DNA of 64,000 nt. Origin: Ulota crispa (Eukaryota; Streptophyta; Bryopsida; Orthotrichales; Orthotrichaceae). The stretch lies in assembly GCA_963920765.1 (NCBI GenBank), contig OY987242.1, forward strand, positions 36,356,002-36,420,001, written 5' to 3'. The position numbers and the translations under genes are program-made. The first letter of the stretch is position 1. Each line of letters begins with the position of its first letter. Of this stretch, positions 17,018-39,133 are shown one piece after another. A model generated the notes under the pieces. That model did no database searches. It was not told the origin of the DNA and saw nothing but the letters and a program-made list of their open reading frames with translations.

Positions 17018-17021
17018 TTAA

Positions 17022-17092
17022 CCCCTGAACGCCCAGGGTTTTCAAAAAAGCACTGAATAGAGGACACTTTTAGTCCCTAGGGTGTTCAGGGG
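17022..17092. mobile_element. 71-bp TTAA-flanked MITE (CCCCTGAACG family)
   Basis: TTAA (17018-17021) precedes CCCCTGAACGCCCAGGG, and CCCTAGGGTGTTCAGGGG is followed by TTAA (17093-17096). The ends are near-perfect inverted repeats. It lies about 230 bp upstream of the IPI1/TEX10 start codon. Confidence 0.75.
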
Positions 17093-17225
17093 TTAAACCC
17101 TTCCTCTCCGGACTTTTCCTTATCAGCTTTAACTTTTTGGGTTTTACTCTTTGGGTGTTACTTTATGGGTTTATGTGAGAAAAGAGCGTTGCTTACACTT
17201 ACTGCAGCAAATGCAATTAACTTAA

Positions 17226-17451
17226 CCCTTAAACGTGCATAGGGCATAGTATATACCCTGACATATAATTATTATTTGCTATCAATAAAAAAAGGAAATT
17301 TGGAATCTCAAGTATCTCACTAGAATCGCATTGACCTATTCTCCAACTTCTTTGTTGGTCTCAAATGTAATAGAGGTGTGGATCCATTCCAAATACAAGA
17401 AAAATATCCTGTATTGTATTGGTTGTAGCGACATGCTCAGATGTTTAGGGG
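17226..17451. mobile_element. TTAA-flanked MITE, 226 bp
   Basis: TTAA at 17222-17225 is followed by CCCTTAAACGTGCATAGGG. The right end, ATGTTTAGGGG, is followed by TTAA at 17452-17455. The inverted ends and target match the elements at 17022 and 19503. The stretch 17093-17225 between the two elements resembles 24703-24880 and may be another family fragment. Confidence 0.7.
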
Positions 17452-17684
17452 TTAAGGGTGTAGGGCAAAGTGCAGGGAGATTTTGAGCTCCTTCAGCACA
17501 AATCCTACATTTCTCATTGTCAACCGGTTTTTGTAGTGCATACACCAGTTATTGCCTATATATTTACACTATGATTAGAAAATTTTAAAAAAATTAGCCA
17601 ATTTTTGTAAATTTTAATCAATTTTTTTCCCATTTCATTCAGTTGGCTTTCTATTGCTTTTTGGCTCTCCCCTTACATTGGTTT

Positions 17685-17935
17685 TGGGTACCGCAAGGTC
17701 TCAAAAAATTTAGGAAACTCTAGGCTTAGCCTTTCAACAAGCTATCATGGAACGTCATTTTTGTGAAAAAAATATTGTAGAATGTCTTATATTAAAGGGC
17801 AAAGTTATAGCTCATAGGGTCCCTAAAAGTAGCTCTAGACTAACCTTGAAATTGCTTAGGTGTGTTCATATAATGGCACTTGGCGGTCCTCATCCCAACC
17901 TTCCCAAAGCAACAAATTTAATAAAATGCCCAAAT
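17685..17935 (+). repeat. Dispersed repeat containing GTACCGCAAGGTC
   Basis: The same order of landmarks (GTACCGCAAGGTC, GCCTTTCAACAAGCTAT, AACGTCATTTTTGTG, GGGCAAAGTTATAGCTCATA) occurs at 62290-62382 plus 63408-63560, and on the minus strand at 61850-62035. The copy at 62 kb is split by the foldback at 62383-63407. There is no coding capacity; the 63-codon frame is not shared by the other copies. Confidence 0.65.
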
Positions 17936-18089
17936 TAAGTAAAAAATTACAAAAACATGTCCAAATTGACACTGCTTTCTTGTAGTGCATGTTGGTACAA
18001 ATTACAAATACACTCTAATATAAGTTTGAATTTGAAATATTTTCATATCATGAATTAATCTATTTTAAGTAGCAATGAGACTGTTATTA

Positions 18090-18355
18090 ATGCCATATTT
18101 GTTAATTGGGCCAAAACGGTTATTTTGGGACTTTTGAAAGTTTGGGGTGATCACCCCAAAGCATGCCCCAAACCGAGCTTTAGCGCTTCTTTTGGTACAC
18201 ATGTCCTCACCTGAGAGGAGGAATTTGTGAGGGAAAAAATCTTAGTGGCTTAGATTGAATCTGATACTTTTGAATCTAGTTTGAGGTGACTATTTTGGAT
18301 TGAGGTGAAGTACAAAATGGTACTTTTGTTTTTCCCAATTTAACAAATATGACAT
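18090..18355 (+). mobile_element. GGTGATCACC-family MITE, copy 1
   Basis: The ends CATATTTGTTAATTGGG and CCCAATTTAACAAATATG are inverted. Inside are GGGGTGATCACCCC, a conserved GAGAGGAGGAATTTGTGAGG block, and a final GTACAAAATGGTAC. Four further full or partial copies exist at 21437, 27433, 27680 and 44937. It has no coding sequence. Confidence 0.7.
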
Positions 18356-18909
18356 TTAATATAAGTTTTAAGACGTTACAAATACCAAATGTCAATGAAG
18401 AAATTACGTCAAGGGTCTTCACAACAAAACTCATTTCAAATAGATATAACCTAATTATCTTTGGTAATGTATACATACTTGTAAATTGTAAGTAATCCAA
18501 CTGCATTAAAGTTATATAACTGAAGTGACTCTCTGATATGGCTCCTTATGGTTATTGCATGTGTAGATGCATGCCAAAATTAGATTGTATTGTAATGCAC
18601 ATGCAAATATGAATGACTCAGTCTTTGTACGTTGCAAAGTGAAACTATTAGCAAGAAAGGTTGTTTTTTGATTCATTTATAACATGTGAAAAAACACAAA
18701 GAAAATGCCTAGAACAAAATGTGTACTTTGAAATCACATTCCAATAACATAATGCAAAAATCAAGAGTTCAATCAAAAATATGCCTTTGATGGCATGGAT
18801 TGCCCATAAAACAATTACAACATTTTTGTAACTATTTCAATATTGCAATTGAAGACAATTGTAGAAAAGACAATTGCAAAACCCTACTACCTTAGAGCAT
18901 AGAATTCAA

Positions 18910-18995
18910 CCCCTAAAGGACCATATAGATGATTTTTGTCCTTGGGAATACACTCTACCCCGTGCAAGCACGGTGACCCCTATGGCACTTAAGAG
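18910..18995. mobile_element. 86-bp TTAA-family MITE within copy A
   Basis: It starts CCCCTAAAGGACC and ends GCACTTAAGAG before TTAA, with an internal hairpin around CCGTGCAAGCACGG. Copy C lacks it: there GAATTCAATAACA runs on uninterrupted (complement of about 45945-45957). The left flank is TCAA instead of TTAA, so one target copy has a substitution. Confidence 0.6.
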
Positions 18996-19502
18996 TTAAT
19001 AATATAATATCAAGAAGATGAATAATATGGAATCAAAGACATAGAATGCAAAGAAACCTGCATTCAACAAATTTTTGGATTGAGACTCATGTGAGAATCT
19101 ATATTTAATAGAAGTAGTAGATGTTGGGCATAGTATTCAATACAATATTTTGGGAAAAATTCTTTCCCAAAACCAATTTTGGAATATTGAATATTACATT
19201 TGTGAGAGTAATTTGGTGATTTAAAGTGAGTATTTTTAATAATTCCTTCAAGATATTTCATCTTTGATATAAAGTCTTGAAGAAATCACCATAAAATTCA
19301 CTTTGAATCACTGTAAGACTCTTAAACATGAAAGATTCACAAGTCCCAAAATTGGATTTTTTTCCCTAATTAACAAACATCATATTTTATTCAAAATTGG
19401 ATCAATAAATATTTATCGATAACCTCAATTACTAATTTATGCCAAAATTTATTAAAACTAGGCCCCTCCTCTGGTGAATATACTGATTTTGAGGCTATTT
19501 AA

Positions 19503-19726
19503 CCTCCAAAGGGCTCTTGGGCTCTAAAGATACGGTACCAAATACGGTCGCAACCAATATTCAGAAGTTTGAATCTCTTAGAAATTAAGTGTTACAATCA
19601 TACATATTGAAGGGTTGTATGATAGGGAATGCATAAAAAAAATTGGAAAGCCCTCATAGTAGCTCAAATACGTCTATACACATGACCATATATACGGCCG
19701 CAAAGGGCTTTTGAGCTGTTCAGGGG
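19503..19726. mobile_element. TTAA-flanked element with empty site in copy C
   Basis: In copy A, GAGGCTAT-TTAA is followed by CCTCCAAAGGGCTC. 224 bp later, GTTCAGGGG is followed by TTAA-GATTGTGAC. In copy C the complement of 45440-45465 reads GAGGCTATTTAAGATCGTGAC with a single TTAA. This filled/empty pair shows directly that the family targets and duplicates TTAA. Confidence 0.85.
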
Positions 19727-19753
19727 TTAAGATTGTGACTACTCCATATTGAA

Positions 19754-20105
19754 TCAATATTCTCCTCCAATCCTGCAAATGTGTTCTTTGACGTCTGGAA
19801 GTGTCTCAGACCCTAGGAGGGCAACGGTGAAGATGCTCTTAGGCCATTGCAACGTACTAGGGCGGTGGCGGTGGCGGACATGCAAGGGCTCGGCTTGCAT
19901 GCGATGCACCTCTAATGTTCCCTCATGAAGTCGTGAAGATTCAGGAAAGAGGGTGGTGTTCCCAACTGGTCTAAGAGCATGAAATGAAGACGATCTTCCT
20001 TCATAACCGCCACCTGGCAAAGAGGGAACTCTGTCAGTTATCTGTATACCTTCAAGCTCAGCCCTTCTGCATGCACCACAAACCTTTACAATTTTAGACG
20101 TTTAC
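19754..20105 (-). pseudogene. LQGG-type repeat-borne coding remnant, copy A
   Basis: Minus-strand residues GGGYEGRSSSFHALRPV and ESSRLHEGTLEVHRMQAEPL match the proteins at 32192-32440 and 44469-44936. The upstream MQKG start equivalent is followed at once by a stop, and the copy runs into unrelated sequence at the 3' side. I do not recognise the protein. It travels with the dispersed segment. Confidence 0.55.
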
Positions 20106-21436
20106 ACAATGCACACTGATTTGTTCAAAACTAACAACTTTTAACTCTCAAAAGATGTTACCTACCACAAGTGTTGAATGTATTCGTTCAAAGATCATTT
20201 GGTATTTGAAAAAATGGTTTCATGACAAATGTCAAAAATTCCCCAAAAAGTCCTAAGTGACCAGTACTATGTTTTCAACTTGGCTTGAAATATACGGCTC
20301 CAATGGAACTCATGTGCTACCCAAATACCCCATCCATAATTATACAACACAAGAAAGTGTATACAGTAGAGCAACATCCTTTAGGGATTGGCAGCCTTGA
20401 TTGAGAGATGATTTTCTACAAAGCTTGTGCTCGACGCTCGTCACTAAGTCATCTTGACATCCCAAAAAGGATTGAACAAGTAGAAATGAGTTGGAGATTT
20501 GGAAACCAAACAATCAAAAAACCAATTCGGTGCTTTCGTCAACGTTGAAGGCTTGTAGCTGGGATAAACTCAGAAAAAAAGCTCCTTCCTTGTAGCCAAG
20601 ATATTTGGCTCTGACTAGGTTGTCTACTTGTCCGGGCAATGACACGATCAGAGTACCATACCCCCAAAATTACCATCCGGAATGACCAAAAGTTAGGACC
20701 CGAAAACCCTTATTTTGATCACTTATTGGTTTATACGAAATGAATTATTAACATTTTGAAATTTTTGACCTCATGTGCACTTAGAGATAAGTATGTGTGC
20801 ATGCTTTGTCACTTGAAAAGTAAACTTACAATTCTTTAACATTTTATATTGGGTATGGAAAACCTCACTTGAAATTGGAGTTTAAATAATCCAAAAAAAC
20901 TACTTTTAGTACTTTATGGGGGCTCATACATATTAGATGTATGGGCCATACATGTTTGTACAACTATAATTCCATCTTCTTAGATTAGGACTATCAAACA
21001 AATTTGTTGTCTAGATGAATCCTTCATTTCATTTTTAGGAAATGGGACAATTCACGAATTCTTTACAAAAAGACTCATCTAGATATGATACCATTACCAA
21101 GTTTTTATTTTTATTTTTTTCTACTAATTTACAAGTATAACTTTATAAGCATATTATTCTCAAAACATTAACAACACAATTCTATCTATTTAGACTTAAT
21201 AAAGAGGAGAAAAATGGAGAATAAGACCAAAAACGAGCAAGATATTCCTTCTATGGTATCCTAATTGTGCTATTGCGCACCACCAAAGTTTGTATGATCT
21301 AAGAGCATCTTTTGCCACCCTATAATCATCAAGGTCCCTTCAATTTCTCTCTATCCATTTAAGAGGGGATGGCCATTTGTATCCCCAACATTGCACCTCA
21401 CTAAGCATAGTGTCAATCAATCAAAACTCAAGGAAA

Positions 21437-21712
21437 CACCATATTAGGTAATCTGGGCAAAAGGGTACATTTTGAGACTTCTGAAGGTTTTAGGTGATCA
21501 CCTAAAATCGAGCTCCAGCTTTTTTTGGGTACACGTGCCCTCACCTAAGAGGAGGAATTTGCGAGGGAAAAAATCTTAGTGGCTCCTTCTGAATTTGATA
21601 CCTTTAAATTTGGTTTAAGGTAACTTTTTGGGTTTAAGGTGGAGTACAAAATGGTACCTCTCTTTTTCCCAATTTGCCTAATATGGTGTTAGGAACTTTC
21701 AAAAGCAACAAA
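21437..21712 (+). mobile_element. GGTGATCACC-family MITE, copy 2
   Basis: The best-preserved ends in the family are ACACCATATTAGGTAA and TTGCCTAATATGGTGT. They are flanked by AGGAA on both sides, suggesting a 5-bp target duplication. The central TTAGGTGATCACCTAA palindrome and the AAGAGGAGGAATTTG block are conserved. Confidence 0.75.
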
Positions 21713-21896
21713 GTAAGTTATGACAACAAGAAAATATAACAGGCAAAGGGTTTAGAGACCCCTTCAAATATGGCTTATTGATGGAGGAAGGTAAATGTAG
21801 AAGCTGAACACATGCTAGAATTTGTTGCTTTTCATCCGGATGTGAGAGGGACCTGCACATTTGGAGGTTGCAAGAAATGCTCTAAGTTTGGTGAAG

Positions 21897-22035
21897 CTAA
21901 GGCAGGAGGTTCTAAAATGGACCATGCCCTAATTTGGACCAACTCTAAGAATAACCGACGATTTCAGAATAAAAATCTAGTACTCTCATTAATGAGTTAG
22001 GTAGGCTTAGATGATCCATTTTAGAACCTCCTACC
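21897..22035. mobile_element. GTAAGGTAGGAGG-family MITE
   Basis: CTAAGGCAGGAGGTTCTAAA and its complement TTTAGAACCTCCTACCTTAG bound 139 bp. Relatives with the same ends are at 35996-36231, 59812-60122 and 63663-63998. The target duplication is not clear. Confidence 0.65.
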
Positions 22036-22085
22036 TTAGTAGCAATATGAAGGTTTCAGTGGACATAAGTATGAGCACTAGCTCC

Positions 22086-22205
22086 TTACCTCTCCCTGCG
22101 TTTAGTGCGCCATTTGCAAGCGCAGAGCCAGAGGACGCTAGATGTTAAGTTGCCCAGAATAAAGAAAACTGATCCCTGCATCCAACTGTACGCATTCGGT
22201 GTCAT
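22086..22205 (-). CDS. Candidate 39-residue single-helix ORF (MTP mini-ORF, copy A)
   Basis: The frame starts MTPNAYSWMQGSVFFILGN and contains one likely membrane helix (about residues 11-31), followed by a basic tail ending in RTKRRER. Equivalent starts occur in copies B (28686) and C (42977), preceded by similar sequence. Lengths differ (39, 31, 25), so it is either a decaying small gene or leader sequence of the dispersed segment. I know no homologue. Confidence 0.25.
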   Translation of the reverse strand: MTPNAYSWMQGSVFFILGNLTSSVLWLCACKWRTKRRER

Positions 22206-22667
22206 TCTCAAGCCCCACTCCTCGCACTTGTGAAGATCTTCACCCCTCGGCGCGCTCTGACTCCGACTCCGACTCCTCCCCCGCGCACACACACACCGTC
22301 TCGCACAATGCACGTACACGTGTACCCAATCGATGGCAGCAAGCAAATACTAGACTTCACCGACAGTTACAGTTGTCATTCCACAGACCAGGCTTCATCG
22401 CTCAAATCGATCCCCAATTGTACTAATTAGTAAGTAGTAACTACACTGCATTCATTTATCTAGCGCTTACCGACATAATAAACAGAACAAAAGTACAGAC
22501 AATAATGATTTGAACTACCTCCAACCCACACGGTTAAGACGGCTCACAGTCGGCAATTGGCAACCCCGCAATGAGCAATTATATGTTCAGACTTCACAGT
22601 AGCTGCGGTGCCGGAGACACGGAGACCGGGTCTCTGGCGAACCAGAATCTTTGAAGTTTGAACCAGG

Positions 22668-23437
22668 GACGTTTTCAGGCTTTTTACCTTTGAGGCGCCC
22701 AGAGTTTTTACACCAAAATGAGGGTTTCCGGAGATCTACAACTTTGATACATTATATCTCAATCGATTGGATGATCCATAAAAAGTGACTATTGCAAATA
22801 GTGGAATACATATTTAGAAAAGGGCTTGCAAATTTTGGGAACAATTGACCATGAGAGATGGGAGATTATAACATTTGATCAAACAACATGTGATGGAAAA
22901 ATCTCATTTATGGGCAAGTAATTGCTATTTATTGAATTTTAGAAAATTCTATAAGCCCTTGATTCATCTCAAATTTTGTGAATAGCAAGATTAGATGTGA
23001 ATGCACACACTTGCAAATTATCAAAGATTGTACTTCTTTGAATGCTAAGTTTAAGGGCTTCAAACTGCAATGGCGCAAAAAACGATGTCTAGGTAAGTGA
23101 GATTTACCTTGAAAAGGGTCTAGAACATGTTTGAACCCTTGCCAGTCAATTCCTTGCTACCGCAAAACACATTGCAAGGTAGTTTGTAAGGGATATTGAC
23201 CAATTGCAGCTTGTAAGATGCTCCTTGCCACCTCGCCTTGTATGGTGTTCCATGCAATCATGACTCACTAGCTACTTGTACAACATTTGACTTGACTTGC
23301 CATTACTTCACTTGCAAGGACCACTTGAATACCTTGATAATTGTAGTTTAGTGCAGAATCAAAAAATTAGATTTGGTCCCCCAAAAGCGCCCCTGAAATC
23401 CTGAGCAACATGATCCCAGTTGTGGGGCGTTCATGGG
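22668..23437. other. Unassigned AT-rich sequence
   Basis: Copy A stops abruptly at 22667 after TTTGAAGTTTGAACC, so this stretch is probably inserted DNA. It ends CGTTCATGGG before TTAA (23438-23441), which resembles the right end of a TTAA-family element. I could not identify a matching left end. Confidence 0.35.
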
Positions 23438-23441
23438 TTAA

Positions 23442-24702
23442 ACCTTAATTGCCTAAAAGCATCCTTGCTTTTCAAGCGTTGTAAGTCTGAATGCTAATGG
23501 AGTATAAAAATCTCAATTGTACAATCTTGTAGTGTGCATGTTATAGGTGATGTGGATCAAATTTGGGGTTGTTTGACCACATAGATTGGAAGATTATAAT
23601 GTTTTAGTATTGAAAAATGATGCTGAAATTTTCCTAAAAACATATTTGGAGGTGAAATCTGATTTCTAAACTTAAAGTAAAAACACCCATAAGCGTTAGT
23701 GTCCCCATAACTGTCACCTCTAAAATCTTAGAAAATTTGTGGAAGTAAATAGATGTAATTACAAGAATGTGCAACATGTGAACATGAAACCTTAGTGTTG
23801 GTTATGGGTGCAATGGTAGTTTGCTTTTTAAAAATTCACAACTTATTCTCACAATATCCAAATAACACATTCAAAAAAGCAAACTCATTATTTTTTTGTT
23901 CCTAATACAATTTTAGTTTTTATTAATAGTCGTCAAGTTCAAAACCCTTAAACTAACGCTTATGGCTGTTCCTACCTTATTCAAACAAATAATATTTAAA
24001 ATGTAAAGTAATTCAAAACTAGTATACAAACACATTGGTGAAAGAAAATATCAATCAATATACTCATTGTGTATGCAAAATTGTTTTGAAATGTCAAAAG
24101 ACATTGAAAAAAGTAGCAAAAAATCACATCTATGGCTAAACCTCCTTCTACTAAAAATTTTCCCATTCACTCATAACTTCTTAGATTGATATGAAATTTT
24201 AATTGAAATAACTAGACTAGTATGCGCAACTATTCCATTAACACATATTGAAAACAAAGTTTCTATGAAGAAGTTGTAAGCCACCAAAGTTCACTGCTGT
24301 AATGCAAAAATGTGTGGATTTTGAACTTTGAGTTGCTCCCAAACATTGAAGAAAACTTGGAGTGACGTGAAATTTTTACCACAATTACTAGATTTTAAGG
24401 AAAACAAAAACTAACAAATTTTATTGAAAACAAACATTTGATGACAAAGATAAAAGCCTCCAAAGTTGCAGCCATCACAATACGATGTGGTAAATTCAAA
24501 ATGATCCTGTGAACTTTGAATGGCTTTCACAAACTCAATATGTCTTAGATTGATCTCAAAATATTACCATAAAAACTAGAATAATATGCGCAATTTTGCC
24601 AACAAATTTATTGAATTTGGACAAAGCGCAAAAATCACAACACTTCAAGTTGGAGTGATGGACTGCTAGAGAATACTTTCTGTCCCCTTAGGCAATGAGG
24701 GG
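23442..24702. mobile_element. Probable TTAA-family element, 1.26 kb
   Basis: TTAA (23438-23441) is followed by ACCTTAATTGCCTAAAAGC. The right end CCCCTTAGGCAATGAGGGG is followed by TTAA (24703-24706). The complement of the right end (CCTCATTGCCTAAGG) matches the left end. The interior has no frame over 80 codons. Confidence 0.55.
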
Positions 24703-25062
24703 TTAAACCCTTCTTCTCGGGACTTTTACTCATTGGCTTTTACTTTTTGGTTTACTTTTTGAATTTTTTTCTTTGGGTGTTACTTCATGGGATTTACTTT
24801 GTGGGATTTACTTTATGGGATTTACTTTATGGGTTTATATGGGAAAAGGGCGTTGTTTGCACTTACTGCAGCCAAGGCAATTATGGAAAAATATTAAAAT
24901 TTGAAGAATTTGAAGAGTAGACTATTTGAACTCCATGCATTTATTTCATATCAAGTGCAATTTTGCACTATCAAATATGTTATATTTATCAACTTTTAAT
25001 CATTCACCAACAACTTTTCAGCTTTTAACCACTTTTTAGAGCTTGAAATTGTCTCAGCTTAA
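24703..25062 (+). repeat. Fragment related to 17093-17225
   Basis: TTAAACCCTTCTTCTCGGG, the repeated TTTACTTTATGGG motifs and GGGCGTTG...CACTTACTGCAGC match 17093-17225. Short internal duplications of GGGATTTACTTTATG expand this copy. No coding capacity. Confidence 0.5.
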
Positions 25063-25994
25063 CCCCTAAAGGTTCAAGCCCTTTCTTTTAAGTGAAAATC
25101 ACAAAAAACTGTCACTTTGGGGGGCAATGAGTAGAAAAGTAGGAAATAAAGTTTGTTTTGCAAATCCAACCATAGGATCTTGCCTTAGATTAGAAGAGGT
25201 ACTTGTGGGAAAAATCAACTCATTCTAGATGGAGAGGAGGGAGATATTTACATCTGAAGTGAAAAAAAAGGTTTTTTTCCTTACTACTAGTAAATTTTAG
25301 GAGCCTTTGACCACTCTTGCATGAAAAAAATTACATTACACAAAGTTGAGGTTTATTTTTTCCATGTAGAAGACCAAGTTAGGTACATGTGGGAGAATTT
25401 TCAAATCAATTGGAACTATACAACACATGGGGAAAGATAGTAAGTAAAAAGAAGTAGAGAATGAGTCAAATCACTAAATTGTTAAGAATTTAATTATTAA
25501 CATGAACAATGCAAATCCCAACAGCTATAATGTTGTAGTAAACAATCTACTTACTTAGGTTTAGTTTTTTTTTCCAAAATATTAAAAATTGTGGAAAATA
25601 AAGGACTTCAAAGATTATTTTAAAGTAGAGGATCCATAACTGCCCACAAACCGAAACATCTCATAACTTTCATATCATTGATTGAAGTTGAATGATTCAA
25701 AGCTTGCCACCTATGAAAAAATCTGAAGAACCAATTCAAAGTTCTATTTTTAGAAAAATCAAAAATTTAAGAAGTTTTTGGGCTACCTGGATTGCCCTCT
25801 CTCCCCTGAGCAGCAAAAATTATTGCATAACTTCTTTGTCAAATGTCAGAATGACAAAAAAATTAGATACTCGCGTATGTTTTGGAATTCCCCACCTTCC
25901 ATAAAAGTTTCAAACATCTCACAATATAGTTTAGCTATAGGTACAAGCCCAAAATTCATTTGTCCCCTAGGGGGGACAGTTGGGCTTTTAGGGG
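25063..25994. mobile_element. TTAA-flanked element, 932 bp
   Basis: TTAA (25059-25062) precedes CCCCTAAAGGTTCAAGCCC. The right end GTTGGGCTTTTAGGGG precedes TTAA (25995-25998). The ends are inverted and the CCCCTAAA terminus matches other family members. Internal sequence resembles the element at 37265-38755 (for example AATCCAACCATAGGATCTTG). No transposase frame is seen. Confidence 0.7.
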
Positions 25995-25998
25995 TTAA

Positions 25999-26901
25999 CC
26001 CTTAAAGGACCACTTGTCCCTACGAGGGACAAATGGGACTTTGGGCAGGGTCATGCTACTAGAATTTATGATCAAATTCTATAGTTTTTCCTTTAAAGAT
26101 AGAGTTTTGCAAGAGTTATGTGGGAGAACAATTTTTACTGAATTCCAATTTACGATTCAAAAGTTATAAGGGTAAACATGTGAATTTTAGTTGGAGGGGC
26201 AGCTTGGGCATGCCATTTTTTGTTGACTTCTCCTAAGGAGAACCAATGAAGGGATGACCCTTCATTGGAATTTATCCAAAGCAATAGTGTAATAAATATA
26301 TACATTATTGTATTTGATAAATACATTCACCTTTGAATTGCAATAGCTTCTAAAGATTTGGTTCTTTTTCCAATCTTCTTTCTTGAGATTGTCAATGAAG
26401 CTAAAGTCTTCCAATCCAACACTTGGATTTTTTTTTTCTTTAATATATTTTCAGAAAACTTGGTTGACAAAAAACCTCAGTGTAGTATGAATTTCAAGCA
26501 CAAGTTTGCAATGCAGGGCCACAAAGGGTGTGTTCCATGTCTTGGTTGATCACAAAAACTTGGAGAGATATGCCTAACATGATTTAGAGCATGTTAGACA
26601 AATCTCATTAGCATCTATAGTACAAAATTTGTTCACCACACGTGGTTAAATGTCAAAGGCACCCAAAATTTTTGGGTAGGGGTAAAGAAAACTTTATATA
26701 CTACCTTCAAATGATCTTATTTCTCGATTAGTATGGTCAAACTTCACAAAATTTTCATGGCATGTTCTTGAATGAGTTTACAAAAAATCCTAAGGTTTGA
26801 TTTGATTTTTTTTTTTAAAGTTTGTTTTTGGGATCAAATTACTAGAAATGAAGGTTATGAGTTTTTTTTTTTGAAAAAAAATGTGCTTGCTCCTCTAAGG
26901 A
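25999..26901. mobile_element. Second TTAA-family element abutting the first
   Basis: It starts CCCTTAAAGGACCACTTG directly after the TTAA at 25995-25998, so two elements share one TTAA. The proposed right end, GCTTGCTCCTCTAAGGA before TTAA (26902-26905), is inverted but diverged. The junction with its neighbour forms a hairpin around TTTGTCCC...GGGACAAATG. Confidence 0.5.
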
Positions 26902-27177
26902 TTAAGAGCAAGAATGGGAGACAAAACTTTGAGAGCTCTCCAAAAGTAGATGGAAACACTTGACAAATCACAAGTTACATGCAAGGGTGCGGATGCTCTT
27001 AGGGTTTAGACTGGGTGCGTCTCAACTCTGTTTCATTAGATTAAGTTTGAAACAAAATACAACGCAGATTCATAGTTCCATTGAATACCAATTCTACAGA
27101 CTTGGTTTATAAAAGATCGGTGGATGTACCACCCATTCCGATCAGAATGCTGCTTCATATTCATTTCGTTGTCGGTA

Positions 27178-27432: not shown

Positions 27433-27675
27433 TTATTTGTTAAATTGGGAAAAAGAGTACATTTTGGGAATTTTGAAGGATTAAGGTGATCACCTTAATC
27501 CGAGCTCTAGCGTTTTTTGGTACACTTCTTTTCACTTGAGAGGAGGAATTTGTGAGGGAAAAAATCTTAGTGGCTTAGACTGAATTTGATACCTTTGAAT
27601 CTGGTTTAAGGTGGCTATTTTGGATTAAGGTGAGGTACAAAATGGTACCCATCATTTTCTCATTTTAATGAATAA
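27433..27675 (+). mobile_element. GGTGATCACC-family MITE, copy 3
   Basis: It contains TTAAATTGGGAAAAAGAGTAC, AAGGTGATCACCTT, the GAGAGGAGGAATTTGTGAGG block and GTACAAAATGGTACC. It lies inside copy B and is absent from copy C. Confidence 0.65.
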
Positions 27676-27679
27676 CACA

Positions 27680-27885
27680 TGCAAGTTACTTTTAATTAGG
27701 TTCAAAGGTATCAAATTCAATCTGAGCCATTAAGATTTTTTCTATCGTATATCCTTTCTATCAAGTGCGGACATGTGTTGGTTTGAGGTGATCACCTCAA
27801 ACATCCTGACTCACTGACTCACTTCCTGAAAGTCCCAAAATGTACCATTTTTCCCAAATTAACAAATATGGAATCTATGTTTCTT
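27680..27885 (-). mobile_element. GGTGATCACC-family MITE, copy 4 (inverted, degraded)
   Basis: Reverse orientation relative to its neighbour: GGTATCAAATTCAATCTGAG, then TGAGGTGATCACCTCA and GTCCCAAAATGTAC with TTTTTCCCAAATTAACAAATATG at the end. The outer left end is missing. Confidence 0.6.
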
Positions 27886-28685
27886 TTTCTTTTTCATTGC
27901 TTTCTGGTAGATCAAGTTATTTTACATCAGCAATAGACCAATTAGTTGTACATTTAATAATAATGATCAAATAAAGTGTGCTTTACCATGTACCCGTACG
28001 AAAAAAATTAGATTACAAAGTTTTTAAATGCATGTGAACTGGCTTGAGTTAGAATTTGCCTAGGAACTCCGGGGCACAGGCTCGGCGATTCAACATCAAG
28101 CTAATGGGGGGCCGTGGGCGATGAAATTATGGTTCAAACTTCAAAGAGCCCCGATGCCGAAATCTGGAAGCTGCCGACTCAGCTTCCAGAGCAAATGGTC
28201 GTTCCTTCCCGGAAACCACGGGGTTCGCCAGAGACCCGATCTCCGTGTCTCCGGCACCGCCGCTACTGTGATGTCAGTTCTGAACATATAATTACTCATT
28301 GCGGGGTTGCCAATGGCCGAGTGAGTGTGGGTCGTCTTCTTCCCAATCGTGTGGGCTGGGGGCAGTTCAAGTTATCACCGTCTGAGTGTGGTTTTGTATG
28401 TCGGTAAGCGCTAAATGCATGAATGCGGTGTAGTTCGTACAACCGAGAGATGAAGCCTGGTCTGTGGAACGACGATTGTAAGTGTCGGTGAAGTCTAGTA
28501 TTTGCTTGCTGCCATCGATCGATCGGGTACACGTGTGCATCGTGCAAGGAGACGAAGTGCACGAAGATGGTGTGTGTGTGTGCGAGGGAGGAGAGTCGGA
28601 GTCGGAATTCTGAGAGCGCGCCGAGGGGTGAAGATCTTCACATCTTGTTCGGACGAGGAGCACGTGCGAGGATCGGAGCTGGAGA

Positions 28686-29500: not shown

Positions 29501-29525
29501 TGGATAGAATTGTGTTGTCAATGTT

Positions 29526-29710: not shown

Positions 29711-29760
29711 AAAATGAAGTGAAGGAAAAACTCATCCGGACAATAAATTTGTTTGATAAT

Positions 29761-29918
29761 CACGATATTCATTAAAAAGGGAAAAAGTGACATTTTGGGA
29801 CTTTTGGATTTTATGTTTTTTGAATTGTATTTGTTGAATATTCTTCAAAAAACATAAAATCCAAAAGTCCCAAAATGTCATTTTTTCCCTTTTTAATGTA
29901 TCGCATTGATAGGATCCA
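29761..29918. mobile_element. Hairpin MITE inserted in copy B
   Basis: CATTAAAAAGGGAAAAAGTG ... TTTTTTCCCTTTTTAATG forms a long hairpin with inner arms GACATTTTGGGACTTTTGG and its complement. Copy C shows the empty site (TTTGTTTGATAGGATTTG). The target duplication is 3-5 bp. Ends resemble the GGTGATCACC family, so it may be a deletion derivative. Confidence 0.65.
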
Positions 29919-29965
29919 AAAAACGGAATTATAGTTGTACAGATATGTATAGTCCATATATTTAA

Positions 29966-30282
29966 GGGAAAATTCCATCAATACCCTTGGAGTTTGTCAT
30001 ATTTATCATAGACATCCTTGGTTTTTCAAAAATTACACAAATACCCTTGGTCCATAAATTTTAGGCGTTTGTTTTGTTATGCACACTACTTCTTTCATGA
30101 CCAATGTTAAAATAAGGAGTGCAATAGAACATAAAAGAAGCAGTCTACACACAAGGCAGAAAGAAGTAACGTGCATAACATAACAAATGCTTGAAAATTA
30201 TGGACCAAAGGGTATTTGTGTAAGTTTTGAAAAACTAGGGGTATCTACGTAAATATGGCAAACTTCAAGGGGAAATTTTCCC
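29966..30282. mobile_element. Mutator-like foldback, 317 bp, 9-bp TSD (copy B)
   Basis: GGGAAAATTCCATCAATACC and its inverted end are flanked by TATATTTAA at 29957-29965 and 30283-30291. The identical insertion with the same TSD is at 43549-43865 in copy C, so it predates the B/C duplication. Ends resemble those of the palindrome at 5502-7684. Confidence 0.85.
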
Positions 30283-30567
30283 TATATTTAAAATACATTA
30301 GTCCTTAAAGTGCTACTAAAATTAGATGTTGAGGACTTTTAAACAACAATGTCTAATGAGTTTTTCCATATCCAATGTAAAATTTTAAAGAATTGCAATT
30401 TTACTTTTGAAGTAGCAATAGCATATACATACTTGTCTCTAGGTGCACATGAGGTCAAAATTGCCAAAATGTTAATAAATTATTTTATATGTACAAATAA
30501 ATGATCAAAATAAAGGTTTTAGGACCTCTTTGGTCATTCCGGATGGTCCTAATGGGTACCTTGATCA

Positions 30568-30800
30568 TAGTCCGGGGAGTTTTTTGAGCTTAACTAGCCA
30601 ATATCCTACATTCTCTGGGGCCAACCGGTTGTCTAAAGTAAATGTCTAGCTAAGCCTATAGAAAATAAAAAATATTCTTTTTTTCTCCTCTTAAGTAGTC
30701 GGTTATTTTCCTAAACTTTTAAATTCAATTCGGTAATTCTCAAAATCAATCGGCTAGCTTGTAACTAAATGCCGGTACTCCCCGTACATTGACCCTGATC
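30568..30800. mobile_element. Second copy of the 228-bp element
   Basis: CCGGGGAGTTTTTTGAGC to ACTCCCCGTACATTG matches 28931-29158 throughout with scattered substitutions. It is also inside copy B and absent from copy C. Confidence 0.65.
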
Positions 30801-30808
30801 GTGCCATT

Positions 30809-31785
30809 AGTGGGTGTCAAACCTTAGCTTCTCGCACCCCACAACTCTAGGTGGGGCCACCTCATAACCTGGAGTTTTTTTGCAGTTATTAGGCCTGATA
30901 ACTTGATGACCCACCTCCTGCACTGCCTAACAAGGGAAAGAGTTATCTAGTGTTTGGGAACAAGTTATGGGTACTTGTGTTTGGGATTGATGTGTTATTA
31001 AAGAGGGCACAATGATTGTATTTGTGGTCAAGAGGTGATACTAAAGAGGGAGGGTGTGATACTAAGGGAAAGAGTTATCTAGTGTTTGGGAACAAGTTAT
31101 GGGTACTTGTGTTTGGGATTGATGTGTTATTAAAGAGGGCACAATGATTGTATTTGTGGTCAAGAGGTGATACTAAAGAGGGAGGGTGTGATACTAAAGA
31201 GGGAGGGTGTGATACTAAAGAGGGAGGGTGTGATACTAAAGAGGGAGGGTGTGATACTAAAGAGGGAGGGTGTGATACAAAAGAGGGAGAGTGTGATACT
31301 AAAGAGGAAGGGTGTGATACTAAAGAGGGAGGGTGTGATACTAAAAAAGGAGGGTGTGATACGAAAGAGGGAGGGTGTGATACTAAAGAGGGAGGGTGTG
31401 ATACCGAAGAGGGAAGGTGTGATATTAAAGAGGTTAGGGTGTGATATTACAGAGGTTAGGGTGTGATATTACAGAGGTAATTGAGATTTTAGTAGTATGA
31501 TTAGTAATAGCACTAACCTCTTTAATGTCACACCCTCCTTCTTTATATCACACCCTCCCTCTTTAGTATCACACCCTCCCTCTTTAATATCACACATCAA
31601 TCTTTGTGACATTATCCCATACACAAGTTGTGAAGACTTACTCAACTTTTTATCAAGTAGTTTGTGAAGCTTTGAAAGGGTGATAACTTTGGAGAATTTG
31701 GTTCAACCACCACCCCATAATTGTACAATAAAATCCGGACAGAGTTATCTTGAAACCTGCAAATATGCCAAGTTTGACACCCACT
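30809..31785. mobile_element. 977-bp element carrying a minisatellite, absent from copy C
   Basis: The ends AGTGGGTGTCAAAC and GTTTGACACCCACT are inverted and flanked by ATT (30806-30808, 31786-31788). Copy C reads GCCATTTCC without the insertion. Inside are a direct repeat of about 130 bp (30935 and 31068 starts), the 21-bp array, and an inverted tail of CACACCCTCCCTCTTTA units at 31545-31590. No transposase. Confidence 0.65.
31167..31470 (+). repeat. 21-bp minisatellite, about 13 units
   Basis: The unit is GTGATACTAAAGAGGGAGG plus GT. Because 21 is a multiple of three, all frames stay open (one reads CDTKEGG repeated), but this is a repeat artefact. The last units drift to GATATTACAGAGGTTAGG. 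A similar GATATTACAAAGGTC motif recurs loosely at 54960-55330. Confidence 0.85.
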
Positions 31786-32191
31786 ATTTCCCTAATAACT
31801 TTGTCGAAGCCAAAATTCTTGGCTACAAGGAAGAATTTTTTTTCTGAATGTATTCCATCTTTAACATTGGGAAAAGGATCAAACAGGTTTTTTTACTGTT
31901 TGGCTTCCAAATCTCCAACTCCTTTCTACTTGTTCAACTCTATTTCAATGGTGCCTTTCATTTCAAGAAGACTTTGTGACGAGTGACGAGCACGAGCTTT
32001 GTGGAAAATCACCTCTCAATTAGGGCTATTAAGAACTGCTAGTTTTGAATAAATCATTGGACGTTGTGTAAACATTTGAAGTTGTGAAGGTTTGTTGTGC
32101 ATGCAGAAGGGCTACGCTCAAAGATATAGAGACATGAACCGTTACTGAAATAGCTCCCATCGAAGGTGAGCCACCTTCTGAGCTGAGTGCA

Positions 32192-32440
32192 ATGTTGCAA
32201 GGTGGCGGTAATGAAGGAAGATTGCCTTCATATCATGCTCTCAAACCTGTTGTGGACGTTCCCAAATCTTCACCACTTCATGAGGGAACTTCAAAGGAGG
32301 GTCGCGACAGCCTACTAGCCAAGCGCTATTGCAAGGTTGCCGAGATCCATCGCTTGGATGCCGAGATCCGTCGCCTGGATGCTGAGGATATTCCTTTCAT
32401 GACACGCCACCGAGGCCTCGGAACATTCTCTGTAAGATGA
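32192..32440 (+). pseudogene. LQGG-type coding remnant, copy B (82 aa)
   Basis: The frame begins MLQGGGNEGRLPSYHALKPV and includes SSPLHEGT, then a heptad-like RLDAEIRRLDAED segment. Upstream at 32104 the related start (MQKGYAQRYRDMNRY) runs into a stop before this frame, unlike copy C where the two are joined. It is therefore a truncated version of the 44469-44936 ORF. Function unknown. Confidence 0.5.
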
Positions 32441-32450
32441 AGTTTAGCCC

Positions 32451-34888
32451 CCATTTACATTGATTGGGCTAACACTTGATATTTTACTAATAGATGATAA
32501 ACTTACCCAAGCTAATCTTTGTTATATTAGCCTTGGATAATAGCTCTTGTTGATAGGAGCTAATTGATTTTTGGTGCCATGCCTCACAATACATATTATT
32601 GGCCCAATATTGATCTTTTAATGGTAAAATACAAAAGTATTGCTTTGTCTAATAAGATCGTGCCAGATCAACCAAGCCTGTGAACCAATAACATTGGACA
32701 ACTACTGAAATAATCCATAATTAAAATAAAACTGAAGTTGGCCACAAAAAGTTTATAAAATTAAATTTTCAGCTACCTAACTACTTGGCTTATAATCATT
32801 GAGCCCTAAATCCTATCTTTTTAAGGCTTCCAAACTTTGCTCCAACACCAAAGTAGGGTTACTCCCTCTTGGTTGCAACCACGGTCCCTTTGGAAATGCA
32901 TTGAATCTCCCACCTGGTGCACCAAATTTGCAAATTAGAAATATTATTGGAATGTTCATTAGTAACTTCAAAATATAACAAACACCTTAGATGCATCAGG
33001 AAAACAAGCTCTTACAGTAAGTATAGTGGTTTGCATTAGGCTTTTGGCATTAATGAATGAGACGAACTTGCAAGCCATGGATCTTTATGCATATCAATTC
33101 TAGAATGGCTACTAAAGGGTCATTTTGTCATATGAGATACCTTTGCGAGACATTGTCCTTTTGTCATTACATTAGCTAAATCTCGATTTCCTATTGGTGA
33201 GGTGTGTAGCTAGAGATCTAGATGTTAATTAATAAGCCTAGTTGTTCCAATCCTCATGTCCATTGCTACTGCCACAAACATACCACATTATACAAAAATT
33301 CACATTTTGAACCTCCAAATTGCCATCCATATCCAACAATTTAATAACCTCAAACATGGATGGTTTAGTTGCTCTTAAAAAATTTTAAGTCAAATAAAGC
33401 CAAATTAGTAGGCAAATATTTAGATTTGGTACTTCCAAATTTGAAGAGCATCAGCTATGTTACAATAGATAAACATACCTAAAGAAATAATGGACAACTT
33501 ACTAAACTAACCTACTTCAATGGCATTTTGTAATGACAAATATTGTAAGTGTAAGCAAGGAAATACGTATGCCTCTTTCCTTGTTATAAACAATGCAATC
33601 CACATTAACTATGTAAATATCTCAAAATATCACGTTTTGTAAAACTACATGTTAAAAGTTCAACAAACATGTATAATCTATTATTTCTATTGATAAATCT
33701 CACATGGTATAGTAGCTTGTAACAAACTACTTTCCTTATATATCAGAACTCTTTATCTTCTTTATGTTTACAAGCATCTTTTTAAACTTTCCTTTTGAGA
33801 TTAAGACAAAAAATAATGATAGAAGAAGTATTACAAACCTTCACAAGCCTGGGTGACACCAATTTAATTGTACATCAAGGTGTCCACCGGCATAACATTT
33901 TATATGAAATTTGGCTTTCATATAAGTTTTATTATCACTTCCCTTGCAATATCCTCCTGGAAAAAAAAATGAGTCATTACAAATCAATCTAAAATAGGAT
34001 TTAGTATATAAAAAAAATAACAAACACACTATCAAATATTTGCATTAATTACATAAGACATGGCCACCATCCCATAGTTCTATTAGTTATACATCACATC
34101 ATATAAACAAACATAAAAAAGACAAATAGAAGTAAGAACCACAAATAATCTATTTTACATACTTTTGCAAACAGACTCTATGTGACAAGACAACCAGATT
34201 TAAACAATGAAAAAAACCTATAAGCACAATACAATAAAACCTCTGAAAACACCAAATTGAAACTACCAAATACTAAGTCTTGATAGTAATTAAAAAATGA
34301 TAAGAACTGGTTAACAATTAATTAACTTGCAAAAGAATGATGTAAAGAAAATGATCAAATTCTACTATTCAGATCCTCTGTTATGATATTAAATTACCTG
34401 AACAAAAATCTTTAAAAACCAATGAACATCGCAACTAAAAGAGCAATCATGTAGTATTCAAGTAGATATAAGGACTTCATGATACCTAAAGTCAACCAAA
34501 TTTTGTTAAACCAGTAAAAGTTACAACTTCTATAGAACATTTAAAACATAAAAGAGTTACTTTCAAGAAAGTCATATACAACACTAATAAAAAAACAGAA
34601 CTCTAATACAAGTTTGAACTAGATCTAAGCAACTATGATATTACCGCAATAAATATCACAATTCATAAAGAGCATTACACACTGAAACAATTGATTTCAA
34701 AAAAGTAAAAAGAAAAACACTATTAACAAGCATAAGTTCTTTTGAGTTGAAATTTCAAAAGAAGGTACATGTCATAGTTATAAACCTTCCATAATTTTTG
34801 CAATTTTTTTAAAATTATTTTACTATTTTTGAACAACCCCCAAATAGGTGTCTACCTTGGCCATTTTGGGGGTTTTTAGTTCTATTTT
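32451..34888. other. AT-rich unique sequence, nothing recognised
   Basis: No gene, terminal repeat or RNA is recognised here. The open frames at 33795-34035 are shadows of AT-rich sequence. Confidence 0.35.
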
Positions 34889-34890
34889 GG

Positions 34891-35504
34891 GGGTGAAAGC
34901 ACACTACGGTTGTCCAAAATTGTAATCACGGCACAATTTCTGCACATAATAAAAATTTGGAGTCTTTTTTCTTACAGTCTTTTTGACTTTAAAATAAGAT
35001 AAAAAATAAAATAGAGTCTTACTTCTTGCATACATTGATAATTGCATAACAAAAAGTGATTTTCATCTATTAATCTAATGTACAAAGTACAAACATTAGT
35101 ATGTTTGTATTGTCACAGATTCAACTTTAGCATTGTTGTACTTTTTTTGCCTAGTTTAGGGTTTGATTTTCACATTTCAAAAAGGTAAATCCAGTGCTCT
35201 TATGTTTAGGTACTTAGATTAGACATTTAATGAGTGTTTTAGGGTCTACATAAGGAAATATCCTAGCACATGTGTGATTTTAGTATGAAGGCCAATTATT
35301 GACCTTAAAATTGTTCTTTTAAGTTTTTTTTTTTGGATTGTCTGATAGAAAGCATTGTGGTTGAGATGGGCCACCATTGCATTTTGGTTAAAATTGACGT
35401 TTTGGCTCCATTTAGTATCAAAATCTGTAAATTTTGTACCAAATATTTACATTTTGTACCAATGTTTGGACCTTTGGGGAGGTGACCGTAGTGTGCTTTC
35501 ACCC
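34891..35504. mobile_element. Foldback element with GGGTGAAAGCACACTACGG ends
   Basis: GGGTGAAAGCACACTACGG at the left and ACCGTAGTGTGCTTTCACCC at the right are inverted over 20 bp. Beyond that the arms diverge, and no clear target duplication is visible. About 614 bp, non-coding. Confidence 0.55.
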
Positions 35505-35995
35505 TTGGGTCTAAAAAAGCTTTTCTAGGGCTATAAACCAAGGATGTTGTTTATGGAGCACGCATACATATATTTATAAAAGGGTTTTGCAAAATTATAA
35601 ATTCCATGGCATCTACATTGTCTCAAAGTGGGCATTCTATCTCCCTTCATCGGCAAAATATGAAGAAATTCCTCAGCAAAGCAATTGTACCATGTGAATG
35701 TGTTTAATGGATTCTCAAATGGCTAGTTTTTATTTTATTTTATTGAATTTATTTACTATTTTCTAAAAAGCAAGAAAGAAATTGGCTTTTTGATGGTGAG
35801 TTTGTTTAGCGCATAACTTGTAGAATAAAAAATTTCTAAGACTGAATTTTCACGAGTATGCAATTTTAAGTGCTTTACAAATTTTCCATATTTTATTTTT
35901 ATTTTTAAAATCCAAAAGCTCGGTAGTACTACTAGTACTACAAGTACTAAGGGTGTTTGAGACAAAATAGTGAAGTGTTTCTTGCAACTACCCAT
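35505..35995. other. Spacer with no recognised feature
   Basis: Nothing supported beyond short frames. Confidence 0.3.
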
Positions 35996-36231
35996 GTAAG
36001 ATTAGAGGTTCTAATTTCGATCAGGCTCTAATTGTGATAAGCTCTAGGAACATTTGACATTTTACAAGAAATATCTATTATAGTCATTGATGAGTTAGGT
36101 AGGCTTAGCAATTTGCTAAGCCTACCTAACTCATCAATGACTATAATAGATATTTCTTGTAAAATGTCAAATGTTCCTAGAGCTTATCATAATTAGAGCC
36201 TGATCGAAATTAGAACCTCTGACCTTACCAC
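35996..36231. mobile_element. Near-perfect palindromic MITE (GTAAG family)
   Basis: GTAAGATTAGAGGTTCTAAT and its inverted copy enclose arms of about 110 bp that meet at GCTTAGCAATTTGCTAAGC. The arms differ at very few positions. The ends relate it to the MITEs at 21897, 59812 and 63663. Confidence 0.7.
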
Positions 36232-36563
36232 CAAAGTTTGGGGAGAAATTTTAGCTTCACCAGTTGAAATCCGGCAATATCCAGTTTCAACCGGATTTAC
36301 ACTAACATGGACCAGTTATTTTCTGTAAAACTTTTAAATTTCTATTGTAAAAATATTATATTTCGATTTATTTGAAAAATGAACCAATTTTTTAGCCGAT
36401 GATTTCAAATTTCAACCAGATTTTTTGCAATTTCAACCAACTGCCACTGCACTAACCACCAGTTCTCCCGAACCCTGCTTGCCACCCATTCCGATATAAA
36501 TGCTGCTTCATATTCATTTCGTTGTCGGTACCTTCCATGGGATACTATTAACCCTCCAAGTGG

Positions 36564-36614
36564 CTAGGCCGGTGTGAATCCTGCATACTCACTCTCATCG
36601 AAGAAGTCGCTCCA
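36564..36614 (-). pseudogene. Decayed WSDFF exon, copy C
   Basis: The acceptor TTGCAG and WSDFFDE are conserved with 27267-27178, but the frame then reads SEYAGFTPA and stops. Substitutions and small deletions have destroyed the rest, so this copy cannot encode the same C-terminus. Confidence 0.45.
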
Positions 36615-37264
36615 CTGCAACAAATTATACTTTTTAATCTAGCATAGAAAAGACATGCTGCTGTGAATTCATTGTTTTGGAAATCGGAAAAGATTGATAT
36701 AAAAGGAATAACTCTATACTGTAGGTTGAGAGCAGATTCGGCATAAAATAATCCCCTAAAATTTTGCCTAATTATCCTATAAACTATTCTTCAAAAATGC
36801 TCAATGTCAAGCAAATTAAAAATTTGAAATGTCATATATTATAAAAGTCATTAAGTTGCATTAACAATGAAAGGTCAAGGTTGATTTCAAGAGGGCTCAA
36901 TCTACTGCAAATTTTATACCAATGGCTAATTTTAGAAGGTACAAGATGCTTAAAAAAAGGTTTAATTCTACTAATTTTTTGGGTTGAATGCCAAATAATA
37001 ACAACTTTTTTTGAAAGTGCCTAATCTTGTTTAATTACAAAATTGGATGTCAAATTGGTTTTTTCTCAAAAAAAATCAATACGGCAGAGACTTGCCAAAG
37101 CTGCTCTCAACATACAATATTTGTTTTTCTTTTCATTGCTTTTTGTTATATCAAGTTATTTTACATTAGTATCAGACCAATGAGTTTTATATTTTACAAA
37201 AATGATCAAAAAGTATGCTTTTCCATACATATATGGAAAAGAAGTTAGATTATAAAGTTTTTGA

Positions 37265-38755
37265 CCCCTAAACTACCAAGGCCATTTTTTGCCAAGAACC
37301 ACTCAAAACTGCCCCTATTGCTGCGTTCATCAAAAATTTCAACAAAATGTTCCTAAAAATCCAACCATTGGATCTTGTAATGCACTTGTAGGAAAAGAAT
37401 CACAAAAACTTTTGTGACATTTGACTGTACAAATTGAAATTTGAAATTTATGAGCATTTGAAGGGAAGGGTTTTTTTTTGCTCTACAGACCTTGAATTTG
37501 TTATTTTATCTTATAGGTAATCAAGTTAGACCTTTGTACACCAATTTTCAAGGCAATCAAAGACACGGAACACATCCTAAAAACATTGCAAGGCCACTAT
37601 ATGACAAGTTTTGCAAGTAAGTTATGGCATTTTTTAGTGAAGTTTCCCACCACATGTTTTTAGATATGGAAAATTCACAGGGTGTTTGAAGATAAACATT
37701 TACTTCAAATGTTAAAAAAGAAGTCAAAAAAAGTCAAAATCTCAAAAATTTAGAAGCTCCCAAAGCCCAATCTGACCTCCTAATTGGAAATGAAAGGGAG
37801 CAATGATGAAATAATAAGGACCACCAGAGCAACATGTGGCAACCCCTCCTTGCTCCCCCCTCCATTAGAAAAAATATGAGCCCTCTCCAAGGCCCCTAAG
37901 AACCCCTCTCAAGGGGTCTCCTTAATTGTTTTAATTTGTACTTTGGGACAAATTAATTTCCTTACACCCTACTATGCCTTTGAGTACAATCATGGCTCAA
38001 TTTGGCATGTCCAATTTTCATTGGGCGTCACAATTACATGTACATATTACCAAGGTCCTTTTTCTCTATATTAAAACCTTTGATCTAGTACTTGTGAGGG
38101 TAACATTAGTTATGATTGTGTACAACAATAGGAGAATAATTAAGAAATTGAGACATAGTACTAGATTGCCATTTTCTATTCATATATTTTGTGATGTACA
38201 ATAGAAAGTCATACAAGGTAGAGACACTTCACACACGCTTTTAATGTACCCACTCTAGGCCCAATGAATGTTAAGAGAGACCATTCTTAAGGGCCTTGTG
38301 GAGGGTTCATATTATTTCCAAGGCAAAGTCAATATTTTCTCCCTTACCCAAGCTACCCCTTGAATTGCTTTTGGCCAAAAAAAGCCCATAACTTGTGAAC
38401 CATGTGACATAATCACATGATTTTTTGCATCCTGCAAACCTTACACATTCCTTCCCACTAGTAAAATGTTTTCAAGAAATCATGTAAAAAATGGAGGTCA
38501 CAACTCACAAGAATCTACTCAAAATCCCAAAAGTCCCCGGAGGAGATTGTGGTCCTTTCATAACCTTGTTAACCTTCACTGGGGGGTTCCCTTTTGCTCC
38601 CTCAATATGAGTATCCCCCAGCCAATGCCATTTGCGAGCTCTCGGCCAACACCAATGGAGATCTTTAACTAAACTGGAGCCCAGGTATCCAAGGGCAAAT
38701 ATCCCTCCAGCAGGGGGGGAGGAATATCACCAAGTATACAATGTTATGTTAGGGG
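37265..38755. mobile_element. TTAA-family element, 1.49 kb, empty site in copy B
   Basis: The left end CCCCTAAACTACC follows TTGA (37261-37264, one change from TTAA). The right end GTTAGGGG precedes TTAA (38756-38759). Copy B has the uninterrupted site AGTTTTTAAATGCATGTG (28019-28035). Part of the interior resembles 25063-25994. A different repeat (37866-38330) is nested in it. No transposase frame. Confidence 0.75.
37866..38330 (+). repeat. About 465-bp repeat, left member of an inverted pair
   Basis: This is the inverted match of 39365-39815 over its full length. The ends GAGCCCTCTCCAAGGCCCC and GGGCCTTGTGGAGGGTTCAT are themselves imperfect inverted repeats, so each member is probably a small transposon. 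Related ends flank the big CACTA element (47800 and 54530). Confidence 0.7.
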
Positions 38756-39133
38756 TTAAATGCATGTGAATTGGGTTACTGGCTTGAGTGAGAATTTGCC
38801 TAGCAACTTCGGGCACAAGCTCAACTTTCCAGCATTATGGGAGCCGTGGGCGCTAAAATTATGGTTCAAACTTCAAAGAGCTCCAATCAATGTTTAAATT
38901 TTGTTTTTGCCAGGGTACAAAGACTTGCACCTCAAAATGCACGCTAGTAAGGAAAATTTGGCTAAATTTGGAAAGAATAAATGATATGTGGAAGTTTAAT
39001 TAAAAAAATATTAATATAAGCTACTTTCATCCAAAATCTGGCAAACTAGGTTGTTGCTCAAGGTGGGATTTGGCAATTTCATTCAGATTTTCAAGCAAAT
39101 TTCTTAGTGTACTAGTAGCCAAAGGCTTTCATA

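Follow-up and report, generated by a model that had tools for sequence, protein, structure and literature searches.

Transposons of the piggyBac type are familiar chiefly from animals, insects among them. Their ends begin with CC, as do those of the moss elements described here, and the piggyBac-type miniature inverted-repeat transposable elements (MITEs) of animals such as insects and corals are short, non-coding, bounded by terminal inverted repeats (TIRs), flanked by TTAA and present in many copies. Work on plant transposons has centred on hAT, CACTA, Mutator, PIF/Harbinger and Tc1/mariner. Trichoplusia ni piggyBac moves through a hairpin intermediate with a TTAA overhang, the donor site is repaired seamlessly and the element inserts at TTAA (PMC7351741). 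Our study concerned a stretch of 64,000 nucleotides, here called the window, from Ulota crispa (C1:36356002-36420001 of GCA_963920765.1), for which a sequence-only reading had proposed at least eight elements of one TTAA-targeting family, piggyBac- or Sola3-like, in a plant-type genome. The host is indeed a plant, a moss, and the window elements are almost certainly non-autonomous transposons of the piggyBac superfamily, comprising MITEs and longer derivatives. The evidence comes from the TTAA flanks and CCY ends of the elements, their many copies, their empty sites and relatives in the genome that carry transposases and have like ends, and it bears out the piggyBac side of the earlier proposal. 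The genome searched comprised 274,817,297 bases in 157 contigs; the genome note gives 11 chromosomes, 275.00 Mb and 408 scaffolds, and transposon annotation is absent from passages of its text (PMC11803377).

Direct reading of the sequence found all eight candidates with the claimed ends, at positions exact or no more than one base off. A TTAA lies on either side of a 71-bp micro-MITE at 17022-17092 (17018-17096 with its flanks, 79 bp in total), which is a near-complete hairpin, of a 226-bp MITE at 17226-17451 (17222-17455), of a 224-bp MITE at 19503-19726 (19499-19730) and of a 932-bp element at 25063-25994 (25059-25998). An 86-bp element at 18910-18995 (18906-18999) has TCAA on its left and TTAA on its right. 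The other three are a 1,261-bp element at 23442-24702 (23438-24706), a 903-bp element at 25999-26901 (25995-26905) and a 1,491-bp element at 37265-38755 (37261-38759), which has TTGA on its left and TTAA on its right. The assertion that all ends abut TTAA thus holds apart from the left flanks at 18906 and 37261. The ends adjoining TTAA are of the CCC(C/T)TNA type, with degenerate forms tabulated at 23442 (ACC), 26901 (TCC) and 18995 (CTC). The window contains the motif AGGGGTTAA seven times, whereas 60 first-order Markov sequences had it 0.32 times on average and at most twice. By the same comparison, its left-hand form TTAACCCC showed no enrichment (2 against 1.23 expected).

TIR identity over 16 bp was 13 for the element at 17022, 12 for 23442 and 25063, 11 for 25999 and 37265, 9 for 17226 and 19503, and 7 for 18910. 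The window has 5,936 TTAA pairs with a spacing of 60-1,600 bp (elements included), of which 33 scored at least 11/16, so five of the eight elements are distinctive on their TIRs alone and those at 17226, 18910 and 19503 are not. Many TTAA pairs match as well as the TIRs of these three do, which speaks for chance end motifs, or for an artefact of assembly or contamination. We give that explanation next to no credence, as four families (those of 17226, 19503, 23442 and 25063) each have 40 scored places on many chromosomes, empty sites exist, transposase loci lie on chromosomes 1 to 11, and TTAACCCCTGAACG, the 14-base end of 17022-17092, occurs 563 times genome-wide, whereas its reversed pattern occurs twice and a scramble never. 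Copy numbers and empty sites refute it. Genome-wide copies confirm the families of 17226 and 19503, and for 18910 the sole support is its empty site. In the places listed for TTAACCCCTGAACG (chromosome 1 and part of 2) there were three facing pairs, each spanning exactly 80 bp.

Family copies were collected by DNA similarity to the element sequence alone, so the flanks played no part in choosing them; the best 40 candidates were scored for each query, window copy included, and family sizes are therefore lower bounds. The scored places of the 17226-17451 family were 86-100 % identical and of full or near-full length, and 17 matches to 25063-25994 (window copy included) covered the whole of positions 1-932. 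The window elements belong to several families, not to the single one that had been claimed. Most copies are flanked by TTAA, an outcome that the sequence-only reading had named as support for itself. TTAA was present on the left of 24, on the right of 26 and on both sides of 21 among 30 copies of the 17226-17451 family, and on the left of eight, the right of seven and both sides of seven among eight copies of the 19503-19726 family, each sample including the window copy. All eight further copies of 25063-25994, picked from whole-query matches, had TTAA on both sides, and where right ends of 23442-24702 were counted, five of the six fetched copies (window copy included) had a right-hand TTAA. 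Pooled over the first three families, both flanks were TTAA in 36 of 46 sampled copies, two window copies included, whereas the background frequency of TTAA in the window and fetched loci is 0.74-0.80 % of positions.

These counts bear upon a second explanation, in which the elements would be Tourist-like MITEs of PIF/Harbinger whose 3-bp TWA duplication was read by chance as TTAA. TTAA does include both TTA and TAA, and a preference of plant Tourist MITEs for TWA is given in part of a recent review (PMC12595863). We nevertheless regard the explanation as barely credible, since the symmetry of the ends holds only when all four bases are taken as the target, both flanks are TTAA in the pooled proportion above and the transposases that the PF13843 search located between such ends belong to piggyBac. 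What the elements display is a four-base TTAA with symmetric ends, not the 3-bp duplication that marks PIF/Harbinger.

Empty sites were sought by joining 150 bases from each side of an element and comparing the product with the window and all fetched loci. Spanning matches were obtained for three of the eight elements, all within the window: 18906-18999 (82 %), 19499-19730 (73 %) and 37261-38759 (78 %). Two empty sites with a single TTAA had been claimed, for 19503-19726 and 37265-38755, and both are real, each with one TTAA, at 45338-45606 (reverse strand) and 27877-28155 (forward strand), respectively. A third, beyond those claimed, lies at 45797-46096 (reverse strand), corresponds to 18910-18995 and reads TCAA; the filled left flank of 18906-18999 has the same four bases, which may therefore have been the target at that site. 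In a control, 12 of 400 random pseudo-elements gave a spanning match, and of the six printed, four lay in tandem arrays (at ~31 and ~48.7 kb) and two outside them. The empty relatives may either never have been occupied or have been restored.

The genome contains transposases that would fit these ends. PF13843 (DDE_Tnp_1_7, the piggyBac transposase domain) gave 120 matches, all 120 over the curated cut-off with a best E-value of 1.3e-73, which merge into 116 loci on chromosomes 1 to 11, a lower bound because scoring covered 116 of the 527 first-look candidates. The same domain had no match in 14 control genomes, which may include no eukaryote. Searching three transposase proteins against Pfam returned PF13843 at E-values from 8e-60 to 2e-64. 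A PDB search matched two proteins only, piggyBat (9c0f) and 6x67, which we take to be T. ni piggyBac, with E-values of 1.3e-51 and 7.3e-48 by profile and 5.8e-17 and 4.1e-20 by single sequence. The 594 residues of 6x67 agree with the T. ni protein, whose catalytic aspartates are D268, D346 and D447 (PMC7351741). Across 11 aligned moss proteins the first aspartate was present in all eight that cover it, the second in nine of the 11 (L025 and L026 have a change there; L numbers label loci fetched from the genome) and the third in all eight that cover it. They sit in TVDE, CDN and VDQ motifs, and the profile alignments to 9c0f and 6x67 include all three.

Four transposase loci (L031-L034) were fetched with wide flanks. 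L031 (5,019 bp) and L033 (5,094 bp) are transposase elements of two different families, each with a TTAA at both ends, and L032, which is 90.5 % identical to L031 over the full length, is another copy of the L031 family. The ends of these elements read CCCYT...RAGGG followed by TTAA, so that a linked transposase with the same ends, named as further support in the sequence-only reading, is present in the form of 5-kb DDE_Tnp_1_7 elements. The most direct link is a 30-bp match, TTAA included, between the right end of 23442-24702 and the left end of L031 (90 %); this right end also matches like ends in L043 (29 bases, 86 %) and L045 (30 bases, 90 %). The other window ends have the CCCYTNANYGCC pattern, or part of it, in common with the ends of L031, L033 and L034, which is evidence at the level of a motif. 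Over its first 53 bp, 25999-26901 is 81 % identical to the right end, inverted, of a copy of the 25063 type in the flank of L031.

It is here that Sola3 must be considered, as transposons of that type also use TTAA and could own the MITEs while the piggyBac transposases form a separate set. Direct sharing of an end with a piggyBac element in one window family only is compatible with this, but the elements that carry piggyBac transposases have CCCYTNANYGCC-type ends and TTAA flanks like those of the window MITEs. We judge Sola3 ownership to be very improbable, and it is not needed. For L033, an empty site was tried and rejected, as its joined flanks match window positions 45629-45808 with merely 14 bp left of the junction, which is too little.

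A further property of the piggyBac elements is that neighbours may use the same target. One TTAA, at 25995-25998, serves both 25063-25994 and 25999-26901. The 38 fetched copies provided 65 TTAA flanks, nine of which adjoined another CCY end, against 59 of 1,349 TTAA sites elsewhere in those loci, counting both strands (Fisher one-sided p 0.003), although one of the nine (L002) is possibly a plain flank. As excision and insertion would both use TTAA, a flanking TTAA would stay a target, giving rise to rows of elements with a common TTAA. A further right-type end, ...GGGGCGTTCATGGG before TTAA, lies at 23381-23441 (start indicative) and has its TTAA in common with the 23442 element; its left partner was not found. 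A right-type end had also been claimed before TTAA at 40061, and the solitary motif GCGCTTAGGGG is present in the ends table with its TTAA at 40061-40064; a left partner was looked for and none was found. The same repeat follows two different MITEs, at 17097-17210 after 17022-17092 and at 24707-24870 after 23442-24702, and carries a 14-bp tandem unit TTTTACTTTTTGGG; both elements seem to occupy the same TTAA of a repeat.

If the reaction known for piggyBac applies, a DDD transposase produced from the ~5-kb elements would bind CCCYTNA-type ends, the element would be excised with hairpin ends carrying TTAA, and reinsertion would take place at another TTAA with duplication of the tetranucleotide. 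The short window elements have no transposase domain and would have been moved in trans. The target, the ends and an enzyme family with its catalytic residues were observed, and the order of steps and movement in trans are what we infer.

Several observations weigh against the piggyBac reading, or against parts of it. No PF13843 match lies inside the 64-kb window, and a direct match to the end of a transposase element was obtained for one window family only (23442-24702), the others sharing a short motif. In the 17226 family, TTAA is missing from one or both sides of nine of the 30 copies, one of the three empty sites is TCAA rather than TTAA, L032 has TTCA as its left flank and L034 has a candidate right end only. 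Only ten of the 120 matched transposase stretches are without an internal stop, which makes present activity doubtful. Pfam gave no Cys-rich domain in L021, and a Cys-rich C-terminal C/H motif was found by pattern in L021, L022 and L047, that is, in three of 20 locus files (17 distinct places), where many fragments stop earlier. Lastly, a predicted structure had a mean pLDDT (predicted local distance difference test) of 40.6, too poor for use in a fold comparison.

The transposases are diverse, eight of ten others being 31-37 % identical to the first protein and two being closer (58 and 76 %). A conserved block with IAKLLGW is located upstream of the transposase domain and has no Pfam match. 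Two protein queries placed it at 102 merged loci, of which 49 are followed on the same strand by a PF13843 match no more than 6 kb away (median gap 1.7 kb) and one has it on the wrong side or strand; conversely, the block is present at 49 of 116 transposase loci. We take the block to be either an upstream exon belonging to the transposase or part of a second gene. The 53 block loci without a listed downstream PF13843 match may be transposase loci that were unscored, or may represent a separate gene family. On balance, we lean slightly towards the view that mosses host an old and diverse piggyBac radiation of their own, with this block as a lineage-specific N-terminal module, which supplies much of the MITE load in a land-plant genome.

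Divergence from the majority sequence in the 17226 family (n=30) was 1.8-10.6 %, with a median of 5.8 %, 278 transitions, 80 transversions and no pair closer than 96 %, and in the 19503 family (n=8) it was 5.2-10.6 %; the picture is a rough one only, since copies were selected for similarity to the window copy. Together with the mostly interrupted transposase frames, the divergence suggests past bursts rather than present movement. Domestication was considered for two intact-looking loci, C1:1180709-1181995 (L046) and C8:19570986-19572215 (L047), for which no TIR and TTAA pair was found in the fetched stretch; L046 is split over separate frames and L047 has the upstream module of L034, so they would be decayed elements rather than clear host genes. 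A single-protein query of IMG/VR, sensitive to close relatives only, found no viral relatives of the L034 transposase. Two pairs of transposase matches with identical scores and opposite orientation lie 15-20 kb apart, at C7:18203169-18204302 and 18223004-18224137 and at C2:36765124-36766008 and 36779670-36780554, and look like inverted segmental duplication.

Two of the longer window elements are composite. In 23442-24702, which has a core of ~950 bp, a nested insertion at ~23674-23978 splits the match to relatives, whose own two parts adjoin or nearly do so. Element 37265-38755 has a diverged relative on C7 (78 % over query positions 1-596 and 84 % over 1060-1294), and nested within the window element is an unrelated repeat of ~459 bp (37863-38321), which the relative does not have at that place, although a copy adjoins it. 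This repeat is of high copy number, with ATTAGAAAAAATATGAGCCC-type inverted ends and 91-94 % identity in 39 further listed places, and also occurs in L010-L018; a second window copy lies at 39361-39816, and there is no TTAA at the printed ends, except for one shortly before the 39361 copy. A repeat family of ~200 bp sits near several TTAA elements, at 18185-18377, 21519-21711 and 27510-27702, with a fourth member at ~44950-45170 in the other orientation (identified by eye). The window also contains an inverted repeat at 40802-41450, whose arms (40802-41121 and 41131-41450) pair at 319 of 320 bases, and a run of N at 6380-6579 that is bordered on each side by a copy of a 185-bp direct repeat, the two copies being identical.

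The case for piggyBac transposons in a moss, both transposase-bearing and non-autonomous, is well supported. The superfamily itself is known, and what surprises is the moss host, the diversity and the upstream module. A moss that has at least 116 transposase loci, together with several families of TTAA MITEs in high copy number, shows that piggyBac can spread in a land plant and raises the question of descent versus horizontal transfer. We suggest TTAA as an addition to plant MITE classifiers, and a native plant piggyBac might serve as a tool for footprint-free excision in plants. In a 2025 survey that covered 207 plant genomes, including four bryophytes, MITEs were assigned to the five superfamilies listed at the outset or to a special group, and passages of the main text make no use of the word piggyBac (PMC12550479); likewise, piggyBac is not mentioned in the parts drawn on of a 2025 review of plant MITEs (PMC12595863). 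If the moss radiation is real, a five-superfamily classification would misplace or miss such elements. No report of moss piggyBac transposons was found among the titles and abstract starts listed from the open-licence literature, which is weak evidence, and repeat libraries like Repbase may hold records; the one moss genome paper that matched the term uses the word 'piggybacking' in the matching passage (PMC10619864).

As far as the sequence-only reading knew, neither piggyBac nor Sola3 was established in land plants. For piggyBac this is too strong as worded and needs softening because plant papers list small PiggyBac counts: 1,230 fragments in a repeat table for C-fern (PMC6890710), 206 in one for Oryza coarctata (PMC10576809) and 60 in one for Stellaria (PMC13180808). 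PiggyBac is also named among seven MITE superfamilies of angiosperms (PMC10004981) and, in a compilation with 80 land plants, among the superfamilies found in all groups (PMC4438587). The passages concerned link no such plant copies to a transposase. The plant tables use the same label, for counts whose rounded genome share is 0, and in those passages give no transposase or empty site, whereas the moss has yielded transposase loci, full elements and empty sites.

Compared with the best-described members of the superfamily, the moss system is like T. ni piggyBac (6x67) and piggyBat of Myotis (9c0f) in its DDD transposase, which is homologous over most of the protein outside the N-terminal part, and in its TTAA target. 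It differs from both in harbouring many divergent piggyBac subfamilies in one genome. The moss elements are ~5 kb long, and the T. ni protein is encoded by a single frame of 594 amino acids (PMC7351741). Unlike that single frame, the moss coding region consists of at least two separated blocks, including the upstream IAKLLGW block. In comparison with the piggyBac MITEs of animals, the window elements are distinguished by their moss host, by their CCCCTAAA/CCCCTGAACG-type ends and by a minimal hairpin form of 71 bp.

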